43,449 bases of DNA from Candidatus Nomurabacteria bacterium. GTDB taxonomy: Bacteria; Patescibacteriota; Minisyncoccia; Phycocordibacterales; UBA9973. Below, piece by piece: positions 31,622 through 43,449 of the stretch. Numbering within the stretch: the first letter of the stretch is position 1; the number at the start of each line of letters is the position of its first letter. Location: assembly GCA_943350445.1 (NCBI GenBank), contig CALRAE010000007.1, positions 1-43,449 of the forward strand. Direction: 5' to 3'. Both the position numbers and the translations under genes were made by a program. The notes under the pieces were generated by a model, which saw nothing but the letters and a program-made list of their open reading frames with translations, had not been told where the DNA came from and did not search any database.

Positions 31622-31673
31622 TTGGCGTTGTATGATAATAGGCGTACAATATATCAAGTGGGAAAAAGTGGGA
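31622..31673 (+). promoter_or_regulatory. mra promoter and MraZ-type repeats
   Basis: TTGGCG (31622-31627), 17 nt, TACAAT (31645-31650). Two copies of GTGGGA (31658-31663 and 31668-31673), 10 bp apart, start at the expected transcript start, near 31657. MraZ is known to bind TGGGN repeats spaced by one helical turn in its own promoter, so autoregulation is likely. Confidence 0.75.
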
Positions 31674-31694
31674 AATAATAATTTTACGAAATAT

Positions 31695-32138
31695 ATGTTA
31701 ATCGGCGAATACATACACACCATAGACGAAAAATCTCGAGTCTCGATGCCGGCAAAGTTTCGTAAAGAACTCGGCAAGAAAATTATTATTACCCCAGGGC
31801 TTGGACAATGTTTGTTCATTTTCACAAATCAAGAATGGGAAAAAGTTAGCAAGAAACTTTCTGATTCTGAAACAAACCTTTCATTTTTAAAAGCCGACCA
31901 GAGAAATTTTAATCGATATATGTTTGGACGAGCGGCAGAAGTAGAGATAGATTCAATCGGCAGAATATTAATTCCAGATTTTCTGAAAAATAAGATCGGT
32001 TTAAAGGATACAGCGGCAATAATCGGAGTTAAAGATAGGGTAGAAGTGTGGAACGAGAAGGCGTGGTCGGAGAATAAGGCAATCATTGAGAAGCAAGCAG
32101 AAGAGTTAGCGGAAAAGCTTGCAGGCGATATGAAATAA
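31695..32138 (+). CDS. mraZ: Transcriptional regulator MraZ
   Basis: The protein has 147 residues from the ATG at 31695; an earlier in-frame ATG at 31632 lies inside the promoter and is rejected. Two AbrB/SpoVT-type repeats are visible: MLIGEYIHTIDEKSRVSMPA at the start and VEIDSIGRILIPDFLK near 82-97. MraZ forms ring-like oligomers that bind TGGGN repeats and controls the dcw cluster. Two such repeats lie in the leader. The C-terminus is a helical, Glu/Lys-rich segment. The rsmH ATG follows the stop with no gap. Confidence 0.93.
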   Translation: MLIGEYIHTIDEKSRVSMPAKFRKELGKKIIITPGLGQCLFIFTNQEWEKVSKKLSDSETNLSFLKADQRNFNRYMFGRAAEVEIDSIGRILIPDFLKNKIGLKDTAAIIGVKDRVEVWNEKAWSENKAIIEKQAEELAEKLAGDMK

Positions 32139-33005
32139 ATGACCATTCACAAGACAGTTCTTTTACAAGAAACAATAGACGGTTTGAATTTAAAACCTAA
32201 TTCCACAGTGCTTGATGGGACTTTTGGTGGAGGTGGGCATAGTTTGGAAGTCTTTAATAGATTTCCAAGTATAAAACTAATCGCCTTTGATCAAGATAAA
32301 AATGTTTTTGAAAAGGTTGAAGATAAATTTAAAGGATGCGATATAACTTTCATCAATAATAATTTCCGAAACATAGATCAAGAAAATATAGATGGAATCA
32401 TTTTGGATCTAGGTTTGAGTTCTGACCAACTAGAAAATTCTGGACGAGGATTTTCCTTTATGAAAGATGAGCCGCTCATCATGACCATGAAAGTAAATCC
32501 CTCTCAAGAAGATATTACAGCTAAAGACGTTGTAAACACTTGGGGAGAAGAAAGTTTAGCCGATATCATTTATGGCTATGGCGAGGAAAAACAATCCCGC
32601 CCAATTGCTAGAGAGATAGTGGAATTTCGAAAAAATCAAGAAATTAAAACCACCTTTGATTTAGTAAAAATAATAGAAAATGCAATTCCAGCAAAGTTTC
32701 GCAAAGGTAAGATACATTATGCCACAAAGACATTTCAAGCAATCAGAATAGCAGTCAACGATGAATTAGGAGCACTTAGTGAGGGTTTAGATAAGGGTTT
32801 CAAGGCATTGAACAGTGGTGGAAGGATGGCAGTGATTTCTTTCCATAGTCTAGAAGATAGAGTAGTGAAAAGATTTTTTAAAACAAAAGTGGATGAAGGG
32901 TTTGCAAATTTAATAAATAAAAAAGTTATTTTAGCAAGTAGTGAAGAAATTAAAAAAAATCCTAGATCAAGAAGTGCAAAGTTGAGAATTTTAGAAAAAA
33001 AATAG
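32139..33005 (+). CDS. rsmH: 16S rRNA m4C1402 methyltransferase RsmH
   Basis: The 288-residue SAM-dependent enzyme N4-methylates C1402 of 16S rRNA. HKTVLLQETIDGL, VLDGTFGGGGHS (SAM-binding motif I, about 25-36), FDQDK, GIILDLGLSSDQL and GRGFSFM are all present. Near the C-terminus AVISFHSLEDRVVKRFF and NPRSRSAKLRILEK are the family's closing motifs. It is the second gene of the mra operon, directly abutting mraZ. There are no oddities; the length is at the short end of the normal range. Confidence 0.97.
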   Translation: MTIHKTVLLQETIDGLNLKPNSTVLDGTFGGGGHSLEVFNRFPSIKLIAFDQDKNVFEKVEDKFKGCDITFINNNFRNIDQENIDGIILDLGLSSDQLENSGRGFSFMKDEPLIMTMKVNPSQEDITAKDVVNTWGEESLADIIYGYGEEKQSRPIAREIVEFRKNQEIKTTFDLVKIIENAIPAKFRKGKIHYATKTFQAIRIAVNDELGALSEGLDKGFKALNSGGRMAVISFHSLEDRVVKRFFKTKVDEGFANLINKKVILASSEEIKKNPRSRSAKLRILEKK

Positions 33006-33009
33006 AAAT

Positions 33010-33381
33010 ATGAGAGCAATAAGTTCAAAATTAAATATGTATGTTAGGGGAGTGGGTTTGATAAATAATAATATCGAAAAGTTTTTACTGAACCTAATTC
33101 TCTGGTCTTTTGGTGCTCTTGTGTTTCTTTATCTTCTATTTTTAGGAAATATGGTTAAAAATATCATAGAGCGAAGGGGTCTTGAGGCAGAGACTCGAGT
33201 GCTTTCTAGTGAAGTTGCCAATTTAGAACTTAAATATCTATCGATGACCAATGTCGTTGATCTTGCCTTCTCATATAGAATGGGTTTTAAGGAAACAAAA
33301 GCTACATTTGCTACTCGTAAAGCTCTAGGTTTGAGCAATATTCATGGTAAAAATATTCAAATAGCTCAAAATGACTTATAG
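33010..33381 (+). CDS. ftsL: FtsL-like division protein
   Basis: The 123-residue protein has a short cytoplasmic N-terminus, one membrane helix (about 25-47, NLILWSFGALVFLYLLFLGN), then a heptad-like coiled coil (about 50-80) and a short extracytoplasmic tail. Sequence identity to FtsL is not evident. The call rests on topology, size and position between rsmH and ftsI, the standard ftsL slot. Its 3' end overlaps ftsI by 11 nt, so the two should be coupled. FtsL/FtsB-type proteins activate the septal synthase FtsWI. Confidence 0.7.
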   Translation: MRAISSKLNMYVRGVGLINNNIEKFLLNLILWSFGALVFLYLLFLGNMVKNIIERRGLEAETRVLSSEVANLELKYLSMTNVVDLAFSYRMGFKETKATFATRKALGLSNIHGKNIQIAQNDL

Positions 33382-35077
33382 TTTTATTTCTAGGTTTAGA
33401 GTCGTACTTTTTTTTATAATATTGTTCTCGTTTGTTTTAGTAATAAAACTTTTCTTATTGCAAATCGTCCATCGTGAGGTGTATTCCGAGTCTGCAGATA
33501 GGCAATATGCCACTGCTTCTAGTGATCTATATGAACGTGGAACAATTTACTTTCAAAGTAAAGATGGCGGGCTTATCTCGGCTGCCACTCAAGCTTCTGG
33601 ATTCAAAATAGCTATTGATCCAAGTAAACTCAAAGATATTGAGGATGTTTATACAGAAATTTCGAAGATTGTGGTCATAGATCGTGATGATTTCATGATG
33701 AGAGCTCTAAAAGAAAATGATCCATATGAGGAAATTGCCCGTCGTCTTTCTAAGAAAGAAGCAGATTCTATTTCTATTTTAAAAATTCCTGGTGTCAGTA
33801 TTTTTAAAGAAAAATGGCGTTTTTATCCTGGCGGTACTCTCGCATCTCACGCTCTTGGCCTTGTGGCGTATAAAGATTCTGATCTTGGTGGACGTTATGG
33901 TTTAGAGAGGGAATATGATGCTGAACTTTCTAGAGATAATAAAAGTCCTTACGTGAATTTTTTTGCGGAAGTTTTTTCTAATATAAATAAGACCCTGTTT
34001 AAACATGAAGTGGCGCAAGGGGATTTAGTAACTACAATTGAGCCACAAGTCCAGAGTTTTCTAGAAAAAATTTTAGGAGATGTAAAAGAAAAATACAATA
34101 TAGATTCAATAGGTGGAATAATAATGGATCCAAAGGATGGTTCTATATATGCGATGGGTGTAAAACCAGATTTTAATCCAAATAATTTTTCTCAAATTAA
34201 AGCAGTTTCTGTTTTTTCAAATCCGCTTGTTGAAAATGTGCTTGAGTTTGGCTCTGTGGTGAAGCCGCTCGTTATGGCTGCTGCGCTCAATGCAACAGTT
34301 TTAACACCTGAAACAATATATGATGATAAAGGATTTGTTGTTATTGAAAAAACACAAATAAATAATTTTGACAAGAAGGGAAGAGGTCCGAATACAACTA
34401 TGCAGGACGTTTTAAATCAATCTCTAAACACGGGAATGGTGTATGTAGAACAAAAACTTGGTCGTGAAAGGTTGCGTGACTACTTATTCTCATACGGTAT
34501 TAAGGATAAAACAAATATTGATTTACCAAATGAAACCCTGGGACTTGTGTCAAATATTGTGAATAGTCCTCGAGAAATTGAGTATGCAAATGCTGCTTTT
34601 GGTCAAGGAATTGCTCTAACTCCGATGCAAATGACTCGTGCTCTGGCATCCCTAGGGAATGGGGGCAATTTGGTTGTACCACATGTGGTTAAAGAAATAA
34701 AATATAACAATGGAACATCTAAAAAGATAAAATATCCGACAACTCCCACAAAAATCAGCAAAGAAACCAGCACAGAGATCACACAAATGCTTGTAACGGT
34801 CATGGATAAGGGTATAAAGGCTGGCCTAGATCATTTTAATGTCGCTATAAAGACTGGGACGGCGCAAGTTGCAGACAATACAACTGGGGGATACTATGAA
34901 GATAGGCATACGCATTCTTTCGTTGGCTATTTCCCAGCATATGATCCAAAATTTATAGTTTTTCTTTACGCTGTAAATCCAAAAAATGTCCTTTATTCAG
35001 CGACCACTTGGACGAATCCATTTTTAGACATCACTAAATTTTTATTAAATTATTACGAAATTTCACCAGATAGATAA
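33371..35077 (+). CDS. ftsI: Septal peptidoglycan transpeptidase (FtsI/PBP2-type)
   Basis: The 568-residue class B penicillin-binding protein has an N-terminal membrane anchor (about 8-30) with the active domain outside. A dimerisation/pedestal domain precedes the transpeptidase domain. The active-site set is S295-V-V-K298 (SxxK with nucleophile Ser295), S351-L-N353 (SxN) and K494-T-G496. It cross-links septal peptidoglycan, expected with FtsW, whose gene is not in the window. It overlaps the ftsL-like gene by 11 nt and is followed 10 nt later by murF. Confidence 0.95.
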   Translation: MTYSFISRFRVVLFFIILFSFVLVIKLFLLQIVHREVYSESADRQYATASSDLYERGTIYFQSKDGGLISAATQASGFKIAIDPSKLKDIEDVYTEISKIVVIDRDDFMMRALKENDPYEEIARRLSKKEADSISILKIPGVSIFKEKWRFYPGGTLASHALGLVAYKDSDLGGRYGLEREYDAELSRDNKSPYVNFFAEVFSNINKTLFKHEVAQGDLVTTIEPQVQSFLEKILGDVKEKYNIDSIGGIIMDPKDGSIYAMGVKPDFNPNNFSQIKAVSVFSNPLVENVLEFGSVVKPLVMAAALNATVLTPETIYDDKGFVVIEKTQINNFDKKGRGPNTTMQDVLNQSLNTGMVYVEQKLGRERLRDYLFSYGIKDKTNIDLPNETLGLVSNIVNSPREIEYANAAFGQGIALTPMQMTRALASLGNGGNLVVPHVVKEIKYNNGTSKKIKYPTTPTKISKETSTEITQMLVTVMDKGIKAGLDHFNVAIKTGTAQVADNTTGGYYEDRHTHSFVGYFPAYDPKFIVFLYAVNPKNVLYSATTWTNPFLDITKFLLNYYEISPDR

Positions 35078-35087
35078 TTCACAGATT

Positions 35088-36392
35088 ATGAAAATAGTAT
35101 TTAAAAAAATAATAACTTATATATTACGCATCGAGTCTCGGTTGGTTTTGGCAAAATATAAACCAAAAATAATTGCGATTACTGGAAGCGTGGGAAAGAC
35201 TTCGACCAAAGACGCTGTGTATACTGTTTTGTCTGAGGTCTCTTATGTACGTAAAAGTGAAAAGAGTTATAACAGTGAGATAGGCCTACCCCTTACTATT
35301 CTAGGTATTCCAAATGGTTGGAGTAATCCATTTGTCTGGACGGTAAATATATTCAAAGGTATATGGCTTTTTCTTAGTCCTGTCAAGTTCAATAAATATC
35401 CAAAGTGGCTGATTCTCGAAGTGGGTGTCGGTAAGTCTGGAGACATGCGTCGCACTGCTTCTTGGTTGAAAACTGATGTTGTTATCATTACAGCAATAGG
35501 GGAGACTCCAGCTCACATTGAATTTTTTAGTTCAAGAAAAAATTTGATTGAAGAAAAAAGTAGTTTAATAAAAACTTTAAAAAAAGATGGACTTTTAATA
35601 TTAAACGGAGATGATCCAGATGTTTTAGAAATGAAAACTAAAACAAAAAACATAACAATAGTTTATGGATTTAAAGAGGGTGCCGACATTTTGGGCTCTG
35701 GTGAAAATATTTTATATGATGAAAATAATGTTCCAAAGGGAGTAATTTTTAGGGTAGATGTGGGTGGGGATAGTCTACCGGTTGTGGTGGAGGGGGTATT
35801 TGGGAGAAATCATATTTATGCTTCCTTGGCGACGCTAGCAGTGTCTTTTGGTTTAAAAATAAATATGTTAAATTCCATAAATTACCTTAAGAATTACGGT
35901 ATTTCACCAGGTCGCATGTCTTTATTAAAAGGTATTAGTGATTCTTTAATTATTGATGATACTTATAATTCTTCACCTTTTGCATGTAAATCGGCGCTTC
36001 AAACTCTTGGAGAAGTGAAATATTCTGGTAGAAAAATTGCTGTTTTGGGTGATATGTTGGAGTTGGGAAAACACACGATTGAAGCGCATAAAGATATCGG
36101 TAGAGTTGCGAAAGAAAATTGTGATGTGTTGTGTGTGGTGGGGCAAAGATCACAAGCTATAAAGTCTGGAGCGATAGAAGCAGGAATGAATCTTGGAAGC
36201 GTTTTTGAATTTTTAGATTCGCAAGAAGCAAATAATTTTATAAAAACTTTTATAAAAAATGGGGACTTGATACTGGTTAAAGGTTCCCAAGGAATGCGTA
36301 TGGAGAGAGTCGTTGAGGGCATACTTTTAGACAAAAAAAACACATTAAAATTACTAGTACGTCAAGACGATGAGTGGCTGAAAAAAGTGTAG
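35088..36392 (+). CDS. murF: UDP-MurNAc-tripeptide--D-Ala-D-Ala ligase MurF
   Basis: This 434-residue Mur ligase adds D-Ala-D-Ala to the UDP-MurNAc tripeptide. The ATP P-loop is IAITGSVGKTSTKDAV (about 29-44). LILNGDDPDVL, GVFGRNHIYASLAT, the DDTYNSSPFACKSALQTL segment near 289 and GDMLELGKHTIEAH are typical of MurF. The normal N-terminal UDP-binding domain is very short here, since the P-loop begins within 30 residues of the start rather than near 105. MurF is usually about 450; substrate choice might differ. It ends the mra operon. Confidence 0.9.
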   Translation: MKIVFKKIITYILRIESRLVLAKYKPKIIAITGSVGKTSTKDAVYTVLSEVSYVRKSEKSYNSEIGLPLTILGIPNGWSNPFVWTVNIFKGIWLFLSPVKFNKYPKWLILEVGVGKSGDMRRTASWLKTDVVIITAIGETPAHIEFFSSRKNLIEEKSSLIKTLKKDGLLILNGDDPDVLEMKTKTKNITIVYGFKEGADILGSGENILYDENNVPKGVIFRVDVGGDSLPVVVEGVFGRNHIYASLATLAVSFGLKINMLNSINYLKNYGISPGRMSLLKGISDSLIIDDTYNSSPFACKSALQTLGEVKYSGRKIAVLGDMLELGKHTIEAHKDIGRVAKENCDVLCVVGQRSQAIKSGAIEAGMNLGSVFEFLDSQEANNFIKTFIKNGDLILVKGSQGMRMERVVEGILLDKKNTLKLLVRQDDEWLKKV

Positions 36393-36466: not shown

Positions 36467-39400
36467 ATGAGAAACATAAATAAATTTAGGATACCCGTAA
36501 AAAAATTCTTCCTTGGACTTTTTGTCTTTGGTTTTTTCCTTTTTGCTTTCTCTCAGAATGTCTTTGCAGTGACCACAAGCACATCCCTAAAATCTGCTTT
36601 CCAAAAATATTTAACCCCCGTATCTCCAAAGCAAAATATTTTATCCGCTTCTATTATCACAAGTGTTTCTTTATTAAATAATTTTAAAAATTTCGTAGAA
36701 CCAATTGTATTCATTCCTAATGCTCCGAGGGTCACTTCTGTCGTCAACTCTTCCACTTCTACTATCACTCTACCATCAATCGTAAATGTTGCTCAACCAG
36801 CAACCCCAATCACTGAATCCTCCCTCCTCCCTCTCTTACGTAACCTTCTCTCTAAAAAAGAAATAGCAGATAAACTAAGAGGTCCCATAGGACTTCAAGG
36901 AGCCACAGGATCTCAAGGAGCAAGTGCGCCCATCGTATCAAATCCTGTTCCTTTTCTCCCTATTCACATATCGTATCCTAACTCTACAACTGGTTTCTCT
37001 GGTGGTGCTTCTGCAAACATAGCTAACCTATCTTCGAATGTTCTGACTACTACTACTTCTAATATTACTACTTTGAATGTTACGGGAGCGACCACACTTA
37101 CTGGAAGTCTCAATGTTACAGGTATAGCTACTATTCCAACCTTGGCTGCAACGACAGGAACTCTCGATTCTCTTACTCTAAGTTATATTACTGGTTCTAC
37201 TCAATGTCTCCGCGTGAACAGTAGTGGAGTAGTTTCTGGTACGGGTTCTGATTGTGGTAGTGGGGGAGGTGGAGGAACTCCTGGTGGCTCTACGACACAA
37301 CTTCAATATAATAATGCTGGTTCATTTGCTGGAATCACAGGTGCTACTACAAATGGAACGACTCTTACCCTAGTTGCTCCAGTTTTGGGCACTCCTGCAT
37401 CTGGATTAGCAACCAATCTAACTGGTCTTCCACTAACTTCAGGTGTAACAGGAGTTTTGCCGGTTGCAAATGGTGGTACTAATGCTTCATCTGCAGGTAT
37501 TACAGCCTTCAATAACATTACTGGATATACAGCAGCTGGTGCCACAGGAACAACTTCAACGAATTTAGTATTTTCAACTTCACCGACCCTGGTTACTCCT
37601 GTTCTTGGTGTTGCCACTGCTACTTCTATTAATGGATTAAGTATCACCTCTAGTACAGGAACTTTAACAATCGCAGCTTCGAAGACTCTCACAGCAAGTA
37701 ACACACTTACATTGGCTGGAACTGATAGTACTACTATGACTTTCCCATCTGCTTCTGATAATGTGGTTGGCACAACAGCAACCCAGACTCTTACTAGTAA
37801 AACTCTAAGTTCACCGACGGTCACAGGGAGCATCACTGGTTCCGGTAGTCCGACAATCACTAACTTTGGCACGATTAATGGAGCTACTTTATCTGGTGGT
37901 AGTTTAACTGGGGGTACTTTCTCAGGCGGTACTATTTCTGGAGGTACTTTGAGTGGTACAGTCCTTAATGGTACTGGTTCTTTCACTTTGACTGGTGGTA
38001 CTGGAGCTAATCAAACGTTAAGACTGATCTCTACTTCCAATACAACCAAAGGCGGTATTGAGTTTTTCTCAAGTAGTAATAATATAACCAGCGCTGGTGT
38101 TCTTACTGTTGCTGGGGGATTAAAATCAGCCGCGACATCCAATCAAATTGTTTTACAAAGTAGTGGTGTGACTGGCACTATAACCTGGACACCCACCACT
38201 TCCAACAAAACCTTAACCATTCCTAATGTCACAGGTACAGCTATTACCACTGGTAACTTAACTGATATTACAACGACTGGTACCATAAGCAGTGGTATTT
38301 GGAATGCTACGGCCATTAATCCACAATTTGGTGGAACAGGCATAGACACTAGTGGATCTACCGGTATTGCCACTGTTTCTGGTGGTTCATGGTCATTTAT
38401 TTCCTCTATCGGGCCAACCCAAGGAGGTACTGGCGTAACGAGTGTTACAACTGGAGATTTGCTCTTTGGTTCGGGAATCGACACTTGGGCCAATCTACCA
38501 GTTGGTAGTAATGGCCAATGTTTAAGTGTTGCCAGTAGTGGTTTGCCTACTTGGGGTAGTTGTAATCCAGGCAGTGTAAATGCACCAGTCGACGCTACTT
38601 ATTTGACTTTAAGTAATAACTCGACTCTTACCGCTGAAAGGGTAGCAACTGCTGGCACCAACATTAGTCTCTCAGATACTGGTGCTGATGGCACTCTTAC
38701 TATCGCTACCATTAATGCTCCGACGTTTGATTCTATAAACTTAGCGGCTAGTTCTAGTCAACTTGTGTTTGATTCAGGTGGGGCTGCTCCTGGTACACTA
38801 ACTTGGAGTCCCACGGGATCTGCAAAAACAATTACCTTGCCCGATGCTACGGACACAGTAGTGTTAGCAGCATTTGCTCAAACTCTTAATAATAAGATTC
38901 TCACTGCACCGGAAATCAATGGTGTTGTTACGACATCTTCCACTTTAACGTTACCAAACTTCACATCAAATAATATTACTGCTTCCGATAACTCAAAGAC
39001 TATTTCTGGTTTTGGTACTATCAATGGAGCAACACTCTCTGGTGGCACTCTTTCAGGTGGTAATATTTCTGGAGGAACTTTGACTGCTACATCTCTTGCA
39101 GGTACCGGCTCATTCACTATAACTGGTGGGACACAAGCGAGTGAGACACTTAGACTAATTTCTACTTCAGACGGAACAAAGGGAGCTATTCAATTTTTTG
39201 ATAGCACAAATACCATAGACAGTAGCGGAAACTTAGCGCTTGCCGGTGTCATCAAAAGCGCGGCGACATCAAACCAGATTGTTCTGCAGGACGGGGGAAT
39301 AACTGGTACGATTACCTGGACACCTACGACTTCCAACAAAACTTTAACCATTCCCAATGCCACTGATACATTAGTTGTCCAAAATCTCGCTCAAACTTTG

Positions 39401-42400
39401 ACCACTAAAACTTTTCGCGATGTTACGATTTTTGATACCTCGACTGCTACTGATGATCGGCTTAAAATTTTGGTTGCTAATACCGGTGCGGATCAATTTG
39501 ATGGCACAATTACCAACGCTGATCTGACTGCCAATCATACTTACACCTTGCCGAATGTTACTGGTACTATTGCTACGTTAAATGGAGGACAAACTTTTAC
39601 TTCAGCGACGTGGAATGGAACAACTATTGCTGTAGCGAATGGCGGTACTGGTGCTACAACTCTAGCTAGCAATGGCGTGGTGTTAGGTAATGGCACAAGT
39701 GCTGTTAATGTAACCACTGCTGGTAGCGCTAATCAGGTATTGCGGGTACCAGGCGCAGGTGGCGCTCCAGCTTTTGGGGCAATCGATATCGCTCAATCAG
39801 CAGCGGTTACAGGCATTTTGGGTGTGACTAATGGTGGTACAGGACTGAATACTATCGCTTCAGGAAGCATCTTATATGCTACGTCAGCGAATACTCTCAC
39901 GGCTCAAGGATTAAACAGCACATTAGCAGTCAGTGGTGGAAACCTTGGGGTCGTTGCCGATACCTCAACCCAAAAAGTTGGTGTTTCAAATAATTCACTC
40001 ACCGTCACTGGCACGCGTAAGCAACTTAATTTTATTCCAGGATCGAATGTGTCTTTGTCAGTCACTGATGATAATACTAATAACAAAGTTGATGTTACGA
40101 TCACTGCCACCGGCGCGCCAGCTAGTTCGGCGTTATGGTCAGGTAGTACTAATCCAGATGCCAACCTCGCATTAAGTATGGCTGCATTCACCAACACATT
40201 TACCTGGAATGATGCAACTGGTAGCAACGATTTATTTAAACTCACTGATACTACTAATAATACCGGCAATGGTAATTTGCTTAATTTAACCACTGCGTCA
40301 AATTCCGCCCTCAAGCCGTTTTATGTTAGTGCTGCCGGTGTGGAAACGATCGCTACAACGGCTGGTGGAAAAGTGGGTATCGGTACTGCTAGTCCAAATG
40401 CAAAATTAGAAATAACTTCTGGTGACGCTAATGCTTTGCGTATCAATCCGTTTAATACTTCAGCTGGTAACACTGGTGAAATTCAATTCATGGAGCTAGC
40501 TGCCAATGGTACAAATTACGTTGGTTTCAAGTCGCCAGATAGTATTACCACCAATAAAGTTTGGACACTACCAAACGTAGATGGTAGTAGTGGTGATGTC
40601 TTGGCGACCAATGGTTCGGGTGTCTTGTCTTGGTCAGCAGCTGGTACCGCAGCTCCTTCGAACGCTCGATACATCACTCTTGCGACCAATGGGACTTTGG
40701 GAGCAGAGGAGGTGCTTGTTGGCACAACCAATAAAATTGTCGTTACTCCTAGTAATTCCGATGGTGGCAACGTTACCTTAAATATCGGCACTGATGTTGT
40801 CACGTTAACAGATACACAGACCCTTACTAATAAAACACTCACTGCTCCCAAAATTGCCAACACTGGTTTTATCGCCGATGCTAACGGTAATGAACTTATC
40901 ATTTTCAATACCACCGCATCCGCGGTCAACGAAATCACTCTTGCTAATGCTGCTACTACCACCAATCCAACCATTACCGCGTCTGGTGGTGACACAAATA
41001 TTGGCGTAAACCTCAATCTAAAAGCCACCGGCAACTTGGTACTTGGTTCAACGACAGCTAATTCTGATAAGATAGGATTCGCGCCCAACACAGGTGGGGC
41101 AGCAACATTCACTGGTACTATCACGACTGCTGATTTGACAGGCACTAATCGTACTTACACTTTTCCCGATAGTTCTGGGACAGTCACATTACTTGGTAAT
41201 ACCACGACTGGATCAGGGTCTACTATTGTTTTAGGAACTTCGCCGACTTTGGCAAGCCCGGCCATCAATGGCACCGTTTCTACCACCGGCTTAACTATGC
41301 CGTCCTTTACTGCTAGTGGCAATATTACTGGATCTCTATCACCGACTATCTCGGGTATTCTAACTTATAACGGAGCGACTCTATCTGGAGGTACTTTATC
41401 TGGTGGTACTTATGCTGCCAATGCTATTACTGGCACTACTGCAGGAGGTGCTGATTTTGTGATTACTGGTGGTAGTAGTGCTAGTTCAACACTTACTTTG
41501 AAGTCTACTTCAGGCAGCACCCCGGGAGCAATTCAATTCTTTACTAGTGCTAACAATATTAGCTCGGCTAATAATTTAACGATCGGTAACAATATTACCA
41601 GTACCAGCGGCCAGCTTAAATTACTGGCCACAAGTAACCAGATGGTGCTCGGTACTACTAATACTGTGACCATTAGCTCGACTGCTCCGAGTACCTCTCG
41701 AACTTTTACTATCCCTGATTTTGGTAGCAATGATACTTTTGTTGGTGTAGCAGCAACTCAAACTTTGACTGCTAAAACTCTAACCAGCCCGACTATCACC
41801 GGAGCGACAATTACAACTGGTACTATAAATAGTACACCTATAGGCAATATCACTCCCTCCACTGGTGAATTTACAACACTTTCTTCAACTGGCGTAACCA
41901 CCCTTGGTAACAATTCAAGTACAGTTCAAGTAAATTCAAATATATGGGACGTTTCAACTGGTGGTGCGATCAGTGGTCTCACTGGTTACACTCAAGGTTC
42001 AGGTAACTTTGCGTTCTCTGGAACTGGAACTTTTCAGACCGGCACTGGTGCAGTCACGGTGAATGGTGCAAGTACATTTAATGAAAACGTTGCTATTGCT
42101 GCCAACAAAAATCTTAGCTTTACTTCAGGTACCGGACAGTTTATACAGACTTTTGCTGGTACCACGACCACCGCTGCAGCAATCACTGCGAACTCTTTAA
42201 CAACAGGTACAGCATTTGCGGTAACGGCAAGATCAAATCCAGCATCAGCCACAACGGTTAGACCAATTTTGTTTGATATTACAAATGGTAACGCTACGAG
42301 CGCAGCGACGATAAATGGTGTACAACTTGATTTTACCAATAACCCAACGGTTGCTGGTAACACAGAAAATGTTTTGCGTATTCAAAATCAGGCAACTAGC

Positions 42401-43449
42401 AACGCTACCGATAATGCAGTCGCGTCGCTTTTATTAATCGATAATGCTGATACATCGGCGACTGGTTCAACTAAGGTCACCGATGCCTTACGTATTACTA
42501 ATTCTGGCGCTATTGCTGATGGTGTACAAACCGCTATCAACATTGCCAGCAGCAGCATTACCACAGATTTTAAACTTCAAAACAGCGCGACGATTGATAA
42601 TGACACTAGTGGCACTATTTTACTTACTGCAACCACAATAAAAACTTCAGGTAATCTAACTGTTGGTACTTCTGGTACAGGTACTATCACTTCTGGCGCG
42701 CTTAATGGTCTAACTCTAGCATCAGCTGCTGATGGTTTCACTGCTGCCGGTGGTACAACAACTTCTCGTACTCTCACTGTGACTGGTGCTGACATTACTA
42801 TTGGTTCTACTATTCAGCCGACTTCATCTGGAGCCTTAACTGTTCAATCAAGTGGTGCTAATGGTCTCACTCTTGATGCTGGGGGAGCAGCAGCTGTAAG
42901 TTTGGGTACTACAAATGCTAGTGCAATTTCAATTGGTCAGACTGGAGTTACTACCACGATCGGTGGGCCTATCACGGCTGATGGTAGTGTCACGCTTTCG
43001 GAAAGTCAGAACCTCACTCTTGCCTCAGGTACTGGCCAATTTAGTCAGACATACTCGAATAGTTCTGCCGGCAACGCTCAAGCGTTAGTTTTCGCCAACA
43101 CAAACTCAGGCGCAGGGGTTACAATTAATGGGATTGATATTACTCCAACTAATAATACTGCGCCATCTTCAGGAACAAACACTGTAAATGTTTTATCCTT
43201 TGAAGCTGGTGCAGGCGGTAACGCTGCAGATAAGACAACCAATGGTATTAACTTTGCTTCAGTTACTGGCTATAAAAATTTCTTAAAAACTCCATCTATC
43301 GTAATTGATTCCTCTGGTAACATTTCTGGCGCTGGCACAATCGGCTCTGGAGCTATTACTTCAACAGGTGCTGTTACAGGAACTTCTCTTTCAGCTGGCT
43401 CTGGAGCCATCTCAGGTGGTGCTGGTTCTTTTACTACTTTGACTTCTAG
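36467..43449 (+). CDS. Giant exported protein with tail-fibre-like repeats (partial)
   Basis: One frame is open from the ATG at 36467 to the window edge, 2,327 codons without a stop; the C-terminus is missing. An N-terminal signal segment (FFLGLFVFGFFLFAFSQNVF, about 16-35) ends in A-V-T. A collagen-like G-x-y stretch lies near residue 139. The rest is Thr, Ser, Gly, Asn and Ala rich with almost no Cys or charge clusters. Recurrent motifs are the tail-fibre types QTLTNKTLTAP, ANGGTG, LPNVTGT and, near residue 1303, VGIGTASPNAKLEI, a segment that often precedes an S74 chaperone domain in phage fibres. The repeats suggest a long beta-structured surface fibre. A promoter lies 12 nt upstream, and the gene follows the murF operon. 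Confidence 0.85.
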   Translation, partial: MRNINKFRIPVKKFFLGLFVFGFFLFAFSQNVFAVTTSTSLKSAFQKYLTPVSPKQNILSASIITSVSLLNNFKNFVEPIVFIPNAPRVTSVVNSSTSTITLPSIVNVAQPATPITESSLLPLLRNLLSKKEIADKLRGPIGLQGATGSQGASAPIVSNPVPFLPIHISYPNSTTGFSGGASANIANLSSNVLTTTTSNITTLNVTGATTLTGSLNVTGIATIPTLAATTGTLDSLTLSYITGSTQCLRVNSSGVVSGTGSDCGSGGGGGTPGGSTTQLQYNNAGSFAGITGATTNGTTLTLVAPVLGTPASGLATNLTGLPLTSGVTGVLPVANGGTNASSAGITAFNNITGYTAAGATGTTSTNLVFSTSPTLVTPVLGVATATSINGLSITSSTGTLTIAASKTLTASNTLTLAGTDSTTMTFPSASDNVVGTTATQTLTSKTLSSPTVTGSITGSGSPTITNFGTINGATLSGGSLTGGTFSGGTISGGTLSGTVLNGTGSFTLTGGTGANQTLRLISTSNTTKGGIEFFSSSNNITSAGVLTVAGGLKSAATSNQIVLQSSGVTGTITWTPTTSNKTLTIPNVTGTAITTGNLTDITTTGTISSGIWNATAINPQFGGTGIDTSGSTGIATVSGGSWSFISSIGPTQGGTGVTSVTTGDLLFGSGIDTWANLPVGSNGQCLSVASSGLPTWGSCNPGSVNAPVDATYLTLSNNSTLTAERVATAGTNISLSDTGADGTLTIATINAPTFDSINLAASSSQLVFDSGGAAPGTLTWSPTGSAKTITLPDATDTVVLAAFAQTLNNKILTAPEINGVVTTSSTLTLPNFTSNNITASDNSKTISGFGTINGATLSGGTLSGGNISGGTLTATSLAGTGSFTITGGTQASETLRLISTSDGTKGAIQFFDSTNTIDSSGNLALAGVIKSAATSNQIVLQDGGITGTITWTPTTSNKTLTIPNATDTLVVQNLAQTLTTKTFRDVTIFDTSTATDDRLKILVANTGADQFDGTITNADLTANHTYTLPNVTGTIATLNGGQTFTSATWNGTTIAVANGGTGATTLASNGVVLGNGTSAVNVTTAGSANQVLRVPGAGGAPAFGAIDIAQSAAVTGILGVTNGGTGLNTIASGSILYATSANTLTAQGLNSTLAVSGGNLGVVADTSTQKVGVSNNSLTVTGTRKQLNFIPGSNVSLSVTDDNTNNKVDVTITATGAPASSALWSGSTNPDANLALSMAAFTNTFTWNDATGSNDLFKLTDTTNNTGNGNLLNLTTASNSALKPFYVSAAGVETIATTAGGKVGIGTASPNAKLEITSGDANALRINPFNTSAGNTGEIQFMELAANGTNYVGFKSPDSITTNKVWTLPNVDGSSGDVLATNGSGVLSWSAAGTAAPSNARYITLATNGTLGAEEVLVGTTNKIVVTPSNSDGGNVTLNIGTDVVTLTDTQTLTNKTLTAPKIANTGFIADANGNELIIFNTTASAVNEITLANAATTTNPTITASGGDTNIGVNLNLKATGNLVLGSTTANSDKIGFAPNTGGAATFTGTITTADLTGTNRTYTFPDSSGTVTLLGNTTTGSGSTIVLGTSPTLASPAINGTVSTTGLTMPSFTASGNITGSLSPTISGILTYNGATLSGGTLSGGTYAANAITGTTAGGADFVITGGSSASSTLTLKSTSGSTPGAIQFFTSANNISSANNLTIGNNITSTSGQLKLLATSNQMVLGTTNTVTISSTAPSTSRTFTIPDFGSNDTFVGVAATQTLTAKTLTSPTITGATITTGTINSTPIGNITPSTGEFTTLSSTGVTTLGNNSSTVQVNSNIWDVSTGGAISGLTGYTQGSGNFAFSGTGTFQTGTGAVTVNGASTFNENVAIAANKNLSFTSGTGQFIQTFAGTTTTAAAITANSLTTGTAFAVTARSNPASATTVRPILFDITNGNATSAATINGVQLDFTNNPTVAGNTENVLRIQNQATSNATDNAVASLLLIDNADTSATGSTKVTDALRITNSGAIADGVQTAINIASSSITTDFKLQNSATIDNDTSGTILLTATTIKTSGNLTVGTSGTGTITSGALNGLTLASAADGFTAAGGTTTSRTLTVTGADITIGSTIQPTSSGALTVQSSGANGLTLDAGGAAAVSLGTTNASAISIGQTGVTTTIGGPITADGSVTLSESQNLTLASGTGQFSQTYSNSSAGNAQALVFANTNSGAGVTINGIDITPTNNTAPSSGTNTVNVLSFEAGAGGNAADKTTNGINFASVTGYKNFLKTPSIVIDSSGNISGAGTIGSGAITSTGAVTGTSLSAGSGAISGGAGSFTTLTS
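36881..36925 (+). repeat. Collagen-like Gly-x-y segment
   Basis: Five consecutive G-x-y triplets (GPIGLQGATGSQGAS) encode residues 139-153 of the giant protein. Bacterial fibre proteins use such segments for trimerisation. Confidence 0.7.
37859..41735 (+). repeat. Three copies of a ~125-residue module in the giant protein
   Basis: Copy 1 (about 37859-38237) and copy 2 (about 39010-39370) share the same order: GTINGATLSGG, ISGGTL, GTGSFT(L/I)TGGT, TLRLISTS, KSAATSNQIVLQ, then TITWTPTTSNKTLTIPN. A diverged third copy spans about 41350-41735 (YNGATLSGGTLSGGT, then SSASSTLTLKSTS, ATSNQMVLGTTN, STSRTFTIPD). Copies 1 and 2 are about 1.15 kb apart. The QTLT-x-K-T motif occurs five times (near 37780, 38880, 39395, 40816 and 41757). 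Confidence 0.75.

Follow-up and report, generated by a model that had tools for sequence, protein, structure and literature searches.

A giant predicted surface fibre of a Candidatus Nomurabacteria bacterium with sequence blocks homologous to phage virion proteins

The window analyzed in this work, a stretch of 43,449 nucleotides from a Candidatus Nomurabacteria bacterium, is the complete contig G000:C7 of a source assembly of 617 kb in 15 contigs. A giant open reading frame (ORF) occupies its 3' end. The genes preceding it are, in order, lysS, mraZ, rsmH, a small ORF, a penicillin-binding protein (PBP) transpeptidase and a murF-type ligase; the small ORF stands in the ftsL position and gave no Pfam match. 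The features considered below are all on the forward strand:

31632..33005, forward: mraZ and rsmH (mraW), by Pfam
33371..35077, forward: ftsI-type penicillin-binding transpeptidase, by Pfam
35088..36392, forward: murF-type Mur ligase directly upstream of the giant ORF, by Pfam
36467..43449, forward: giant fibre ORF of at least 2,327 aa, its 3' end lying outside the contig
36467..36568, forward: signal-peptide-like start, aa 1-34 (KK, hydrophobic core, VFA-V), by sequence and conserved in three paralogues of a related genome
36467..37180, forward: N-terminal module, aa 1-238
36815..36919, forward: presumed coil ESSLLPLLRNLLSKKEIADKL and short collagen-like GPIGLQGATGSQG, aa 117-151, by sequence and alignment A1
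37334..37909, forward: phage-shared block 1, aa 290-481 (PVLGTPASG...LPVANGGTNASSAGITAFNNITGY...), by homology to phages and viral contigs
37908..39370, forward: internal duplication with a period of 1131 nt (about 377 aa), copies at 37908-38239 and 39039-39370, 70-74% identical
40373..40414, forward: VGIGTASPNAKLEI with the VGIGT motif, aa 1303-1316, its single occurrence in the protein
40481..41197, forward: phage-shared block 2, aa 1339-1577 (QTLTNKTLTAPKI...ADANGNELI...NEITLANAA), by homology to viral contigs
42095..42487, forward: aa 1877-2007, matching the start of the C-terminal fragment of the murF-rmuC fibre of the related genome (35% identity, E 7e-8)

From the ATG at 36467 the frame runs through 2,327 stop-free codons and two leftover bases to the last base of the contig, which confirmed the open frame of more than 2,327 codons described in a first-pass annotation of this DNA. 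The probability of such a run in random sequence of the same composition is about 1e-56, and GC content by codon position (0.43/0.59/0.29) differed as it does in coding DNA. As the window equals the whole contig, the gene is cut by the assembly and not merely by the limits of the window. An extension of the contig past 43449 had been proposed but did not succeed: none of the genome's remaining contig ends offered a convincing continuation, parts of contig C2 being N (G000:C2:1-8000 reads wholly as N, and so does part of its other end). Separately, an N-module, VGVASYPQIKSGILTLMRLITPDLTVTKSDGTV, was repeated near the edges of contigs C4, C8 and C15 of the same genome (L041, L044, and L035); these repeats represent another surface-protein family that breaks the assembly.

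The position of the gene directly after a peptidoglycan operon (mraZ, rsmH, PBP, and murF) and the lack of phage structural genes nearby, both pointed out in the first-pass annotation, held for the window, where the upstream neighbours tested were housekeeping genes. In the related genome of Ca. Nomurabacteria Ike-100m-2 (hereafter G008) fibre sequence adjoins murF on one contig and rmuC on another. No giant Thr/Ser/Gly-rich ORF adjoined murF in any of the 20 genus genomes fetched (in one of them the contig ends 0.9 kb after murF). The interval between murF and rmuC varied between genomes; within the 6-12 kb or so inspected after murF, rmuC was among the listed ORFs in 13 of 19 genus genomes, with varied small genes in between. 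In the window genome rmuC is located elsewhere, in the middle of a contig and with no fibre; the murF-rmuC slot is therefore confirmed for the window gene on the murF side only, and rmuC as its other side was rejected as not adjacent. Relatives of the fibre were located at three housekeeping sites (leuS, mreBC, and murF-rmuC), so that a peptidoglycan neighbourhood does not define the family; peptidoglycan genes as its preferred site were also rejected, leuS being commoner in the genus. Seven genus genomes had fibre-family genes in the ychF-leuS region, and two had them beside mreBC (L297, L298, L299, L303, L304, L058, and L012/L014); these look like recurrent sites of integration or exchange. 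At one of these loci in G008 (L014:8455-11961), leuS encodes 1,168 aa with internal alpha/beta-hydrolase and NUDIX domains (Pfam), an unusual fusion or insertion.

The N-terminal end of the protein belongs to the cell side and not to the phage side. Residues 1-245 showed 38-48% identity to three G008 paralogues (alignment A1), with which they share the signal-like start, a Leu-rich presumed coil ending in LSKKEIxDxxRGP and a short collagen-like GXY run, longer in the relatives than in the window protein. The signal segment that had been proposed was thus recognized both in the sequence and in its conservation, and the protein is predicted to be exported. Modules related to this N-terminus were detected in 21 of 80 genus genomes (E <= 0.01) and, across the order, in 4 of 397 genomes (E <= 0.001), and none was found in a scan of 2.9 million viral contigs.

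Searches of the window protein against Pfam, PHROGs, and NCBIfam matched no family, and a sequence search of the PDB returned nothing meaningful. Among the many fibre motifs listed in the first-pass annotation, those of the QTLTxKTL and LPNV types are indeed recurrent: QTL[T/N]xK[T/I][L/F] occurs five times (aa 440, 805, 976, 1451, and 1765) and LPN/IPN/FPD/LPD-type sequences ten times under a loose pattern. GGT[G/N] was present six times, and PVLGTP (aa 305) and PVLGVA (aa 378) once each. The VGIGT motif did not bear out that description, being found only once. Chance does not account for the fibre-type motifs, because the best BLASTP match to a phage virion protein scored 126 bits, and none of 100 local shuffles of the window protein exceeded 26.6 bits.

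Two internal blocks linked the protein to phages. TBLASTN of the window protein against 50,697 phage records gave matches in two podovirus-type genomes from Manatee Spring; in one of them (MW202483) the protein UOF77653 was 73% identical to window aa 307-433 over about 130 aa (126 bits). Its gene sits between portal and baseplate genes, and the protein was matched by PHROGs to a virion structural protein. Block 1 had hundreds of relatives in IMG/VR (at least 393 among the 600 pattern matches listed), with DNA identities of 75-83% over 110-220 nt to the best viral relatives, and a near-identical stretch of about 35 residues was common to the window protein and many phages. Block 2 had 178 viral relatives, belonging to another set than those of block 1. 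Three viral contigs with block 1 (L115, L118, and L162) looked like tailed phages by gene content, and portal, head or terminase genes were confirmed by PHROGs in L115 and L118. On this sequence evidence, we regard aa 290-481 and 1339-1577 as genuinely homologous to virion proteins of tailed phages. The phage homologues begin without a signal-like N-terminus. In the locus L037:11580-12851, a 718-codon open frame of fibre type lies on the strand opposite the annotated 'ribonuclease E' of MW202701, whose annotation is probably wrong.

Each of the two blocks was covered by at least three of the viral loci fetched, a coverage biased to the query blocks, whereas aa 840-1045 had no viral relative and most of the shaft was not phage-like in the viral loci tested. 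This indicated that modules of phage type and of other types are combined in the shaft, and that the proposal of a protein built from fibre-type modules holds in part. The AlphaFold monomer model of block 1 (pLDDT 61.5) was too poor to use.

The first-pass annotation had also predicted a self-cleaving S74-like chaperone, or another trimerizing end domain, beyond the window. In G008, one contig end carries murF followed by the 5' part of a fibre gene (490 aa) and another carries the 3' part (2,472 aa) followed by rmuC; joined by synteny, the two would make up a single gene between murF and rmuC, with a length of at least 2,962 aa. The 3' part contains eleven VGIGT-type sites, a Peptidase_S74 domain (PF13884; 49.7 bits, E 4.6e-13, Pfam cut-off 22), a tail of 76 aa, a Gly/Pro-rich spacer and an Ig-like domain (PF16403, E 2e-20). 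A complete G008 paralogue of 2,060 aa located after leuS has the same ending, and in a third G008 gene a Peptidase_G2-like region, weakly matched (16.7 bits, cut-off 25), takes the place of S74 and is followed by the same tail. Of the 397 genomes of the order, 66 carried the tail (alignment A2), in many cases right behind S74; the patterns with which viral contigs were scanned did not detect it there. Thus, the prediction was borne out in the murF-rmuC relative and not in the window's own 617 kb assembly, where neither S74 nor the tail was found; as the 3' end of the window gene falls outside this assembly, we infer an S74 domain at its missing C-terminus by analogy with G008.

The Ser-x4-Lys dyad, described with this spacing for endosialidases and MYRF (PMC3742443), reads SDINLK in the G008 S74 domain and was present in 60 of 68 Patescibacteria S74 domains. 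Across 26 aligned S74-plus-tail proteins, neither the dyad's Ser and Lys (S8 and K13 in alignment A4) nor two Cys of the tail varied. For the S74 domain of G008 with its tail, AlphaFold gave a model with a mean pLDDT of 77, whose first 11 PDB matches were the MyRF ICA domain (7dc3, E 4e-5) and intramolecular chaperones of phages (3gw6, 3gud).

A cell-wall anchor, which had been suggested as another possible ending, found no backing in the relatives: their ends displayed neither LPXTG nor a C-terminal membrane segment, and the G008 proteins with a complete C-terminus gave no Pfam match to the YadA anchor domain. The G008 relatives end in VNAPTPTPGP, VNAPAPTAGP, and DSTPAP, and C-terminal hydrophobicity was low in the complete frame measured. 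In view of this lack of an anchor in the relatives, the fibre protein might be released.

Comparison with known systems placed the window fibre and its relatives close to the phage tail fibres and tailspikes with S74 (K1F endosialidase, T5 pb1), as regards both the blocks homologous to virion proteins and the S74 domain of the relatives, with its Ser-x4-Lys dyad and fold matches to 3gw6 and 3gud. In contrast with them, the Patescibacteria fibre is cell-encoded, has a signal-like start and reaches thousands of residues, and whereas S74 ends the phage chain, in the relatives the conserved tail and the Ig-like domain come after it. MYRF/MrfA, with the best fold match (7dc3), likewise represents an S74-type ICA domain used by a cell, with sequence beyond the cleavage site. 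Trimeric autotransporter adhesins (YadA, AtaA) are also long fibres on the bacterial surface, and YadA-head-like NTAVGYxAL repeats were recognized by eye in relatives from G008 and G399; the relatives whose C-terminus is present nevertheless have no YadA membrane-anchor domain. Patescibacteria such as these are not known to have an outer membrane. The host-binding factors of Saccharibacteria (type IV pili and predicted adhesins) resemble the fibre in their proposed role in contact with a partner cell but are different proteins, and S74 fibre proteins are not mentioned in the available portions of the two articles (PMC12206443, PMC11665869).

The reading that we favour, with reasonable though not high confidence, is that of a giant secreted surface fibre with phage-homologous blocks and, by analogy, an S74 end, whose most likely role would be adhesion. 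The chain would be exported through its signal-peptide-like start, and its stalk would begin with the coil and collagen-like stretch and continue into a long shaft of Thr/Ser/Gly-rich modules, two blocks of which would have been exchanged with phages at some time. If the missing C-terminus resembles that of G008, an S74 intramolecular chaperone would drive trimerization and then cut itself off, being followed by the conserved 76-aa tail and an Ig-like domain; cleavage as in phages would make these last two parts leave the fibre. The fibre is probably trimeric, and self-cleavage and retention at the surface may be supposed. The varied shaft would bind something outside the cell, and module swaps could change the specificity of adhesion to, or recognition of, another cell. 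The phage-shared blocks together with the S74 ends of the relatives point to a surface fibre probably used for gripping other cells, attachment to a host cell being plausible. Export, phage homology and the S74 dyad of the relatives are all deduced from sequence. S74 fibres, MYRF and surface adhesins are already known kinds; what sets this case apart is that the fibre is cellular, giant, led by a signal-like start and in part shared with phages, and that in the relatives a conserved tail follows the chaperone. In the literature searched, with few subscription journals and no bioRxiv covered, no direct report of S74 or tail-fibre proteins in these bacteria was found.

The close match of the two blocks to phage virion proteins, and the variation of the murF-rmuC interval between genomes, would also suit a tail-fibre gene belonging to a prophage, or to what remains of a phage, that had inserted after murF. 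This explanation is mostly refuted, and a prophage origin of the window gene is very unlikely, since housekeeping genes stand beside the giant ORF on its visible side and on both sides in G008, the signal-like N-terminal module is missing from the viral contigs scanned and from the phage homologues, and the family recurs at three housekeeping sites; the cellular origin originally proposed for the gene is therefore upheld. Slightly less probable still is that the modules act against phages, as a decoy or by masking receptors shared with the phages of the partner cell. The near-identical stretch of about 35 residues would agree with such a function, for which there is no direct evidence, whereas most of the shaft had no phage-like character in the loci tested.

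More weight is due to the possibility that the protein is no host-binding adhesin but a secreted structural protein (of a matrix or sheath, or associated with an S-layer) or a product that is released, although we consider this clearly less probable than adhesion. The absence of LPXTG and of a C-terminal membrane segment in the relatives is in line with it, and S74 self-cleavage would part the fibre from its conserved tail. In contrast, fibre modules held in common with virion proteins of phages, and shafts that vary while their ends are shared, would, by analogy, better suit binding, which favours the surface fibre involved in adhesion.

S74 domains are not restricted to the close relatives of the window genome. 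PF13884 was detected in 90 of 380 sampled Patescibacteria genomes, many times in frames of 1,000-8,800 codons, vs. 1 of 14 control genomes (E. coli only) at the same threshold. Several complete examples inspected adjoined apparent housekeeping genes (murB and nusG, mreBC and tgt, murI-murD-murC and pheST, leuS, and hisS), recognized by eye and partly checked by BLAST. Partner choice and attachment are poorly understood in epibiotic Patescibacteria, and giant exported fibres with a phage-type chaperone, S74 being present in about a quarter of the sampled genomes of the phylum, provide named, testable candidates. The near-identical cassettes shared with tailed phages suggest that the same parts may serve both phages and these bacteria in similar tasks of recognition. 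A broader proposal, speculative and in our opinion rather doubtful as a whole, is that Patescibacteria as a group recognize partner cells by means of giant trimeric fibres of phage type, matured by S74, and that receptor-binding cassettes are traded between them and the phages of those cells, cleavage freeing a functional two-cysteine tail in one order.

The N-termini of the Patescibacteria S74 fibres were of more than one type: in some a cleavable-type signal was present, while in others the membrane segment was internal and preceded by a cytoplasmic part. In L293 (aa 1-200) and at the N-termini of L306 and L311, the cytoplasmic parts preceding the membrane segment resembled, by eye, small DNA-binding or integrase N-terminal domains.
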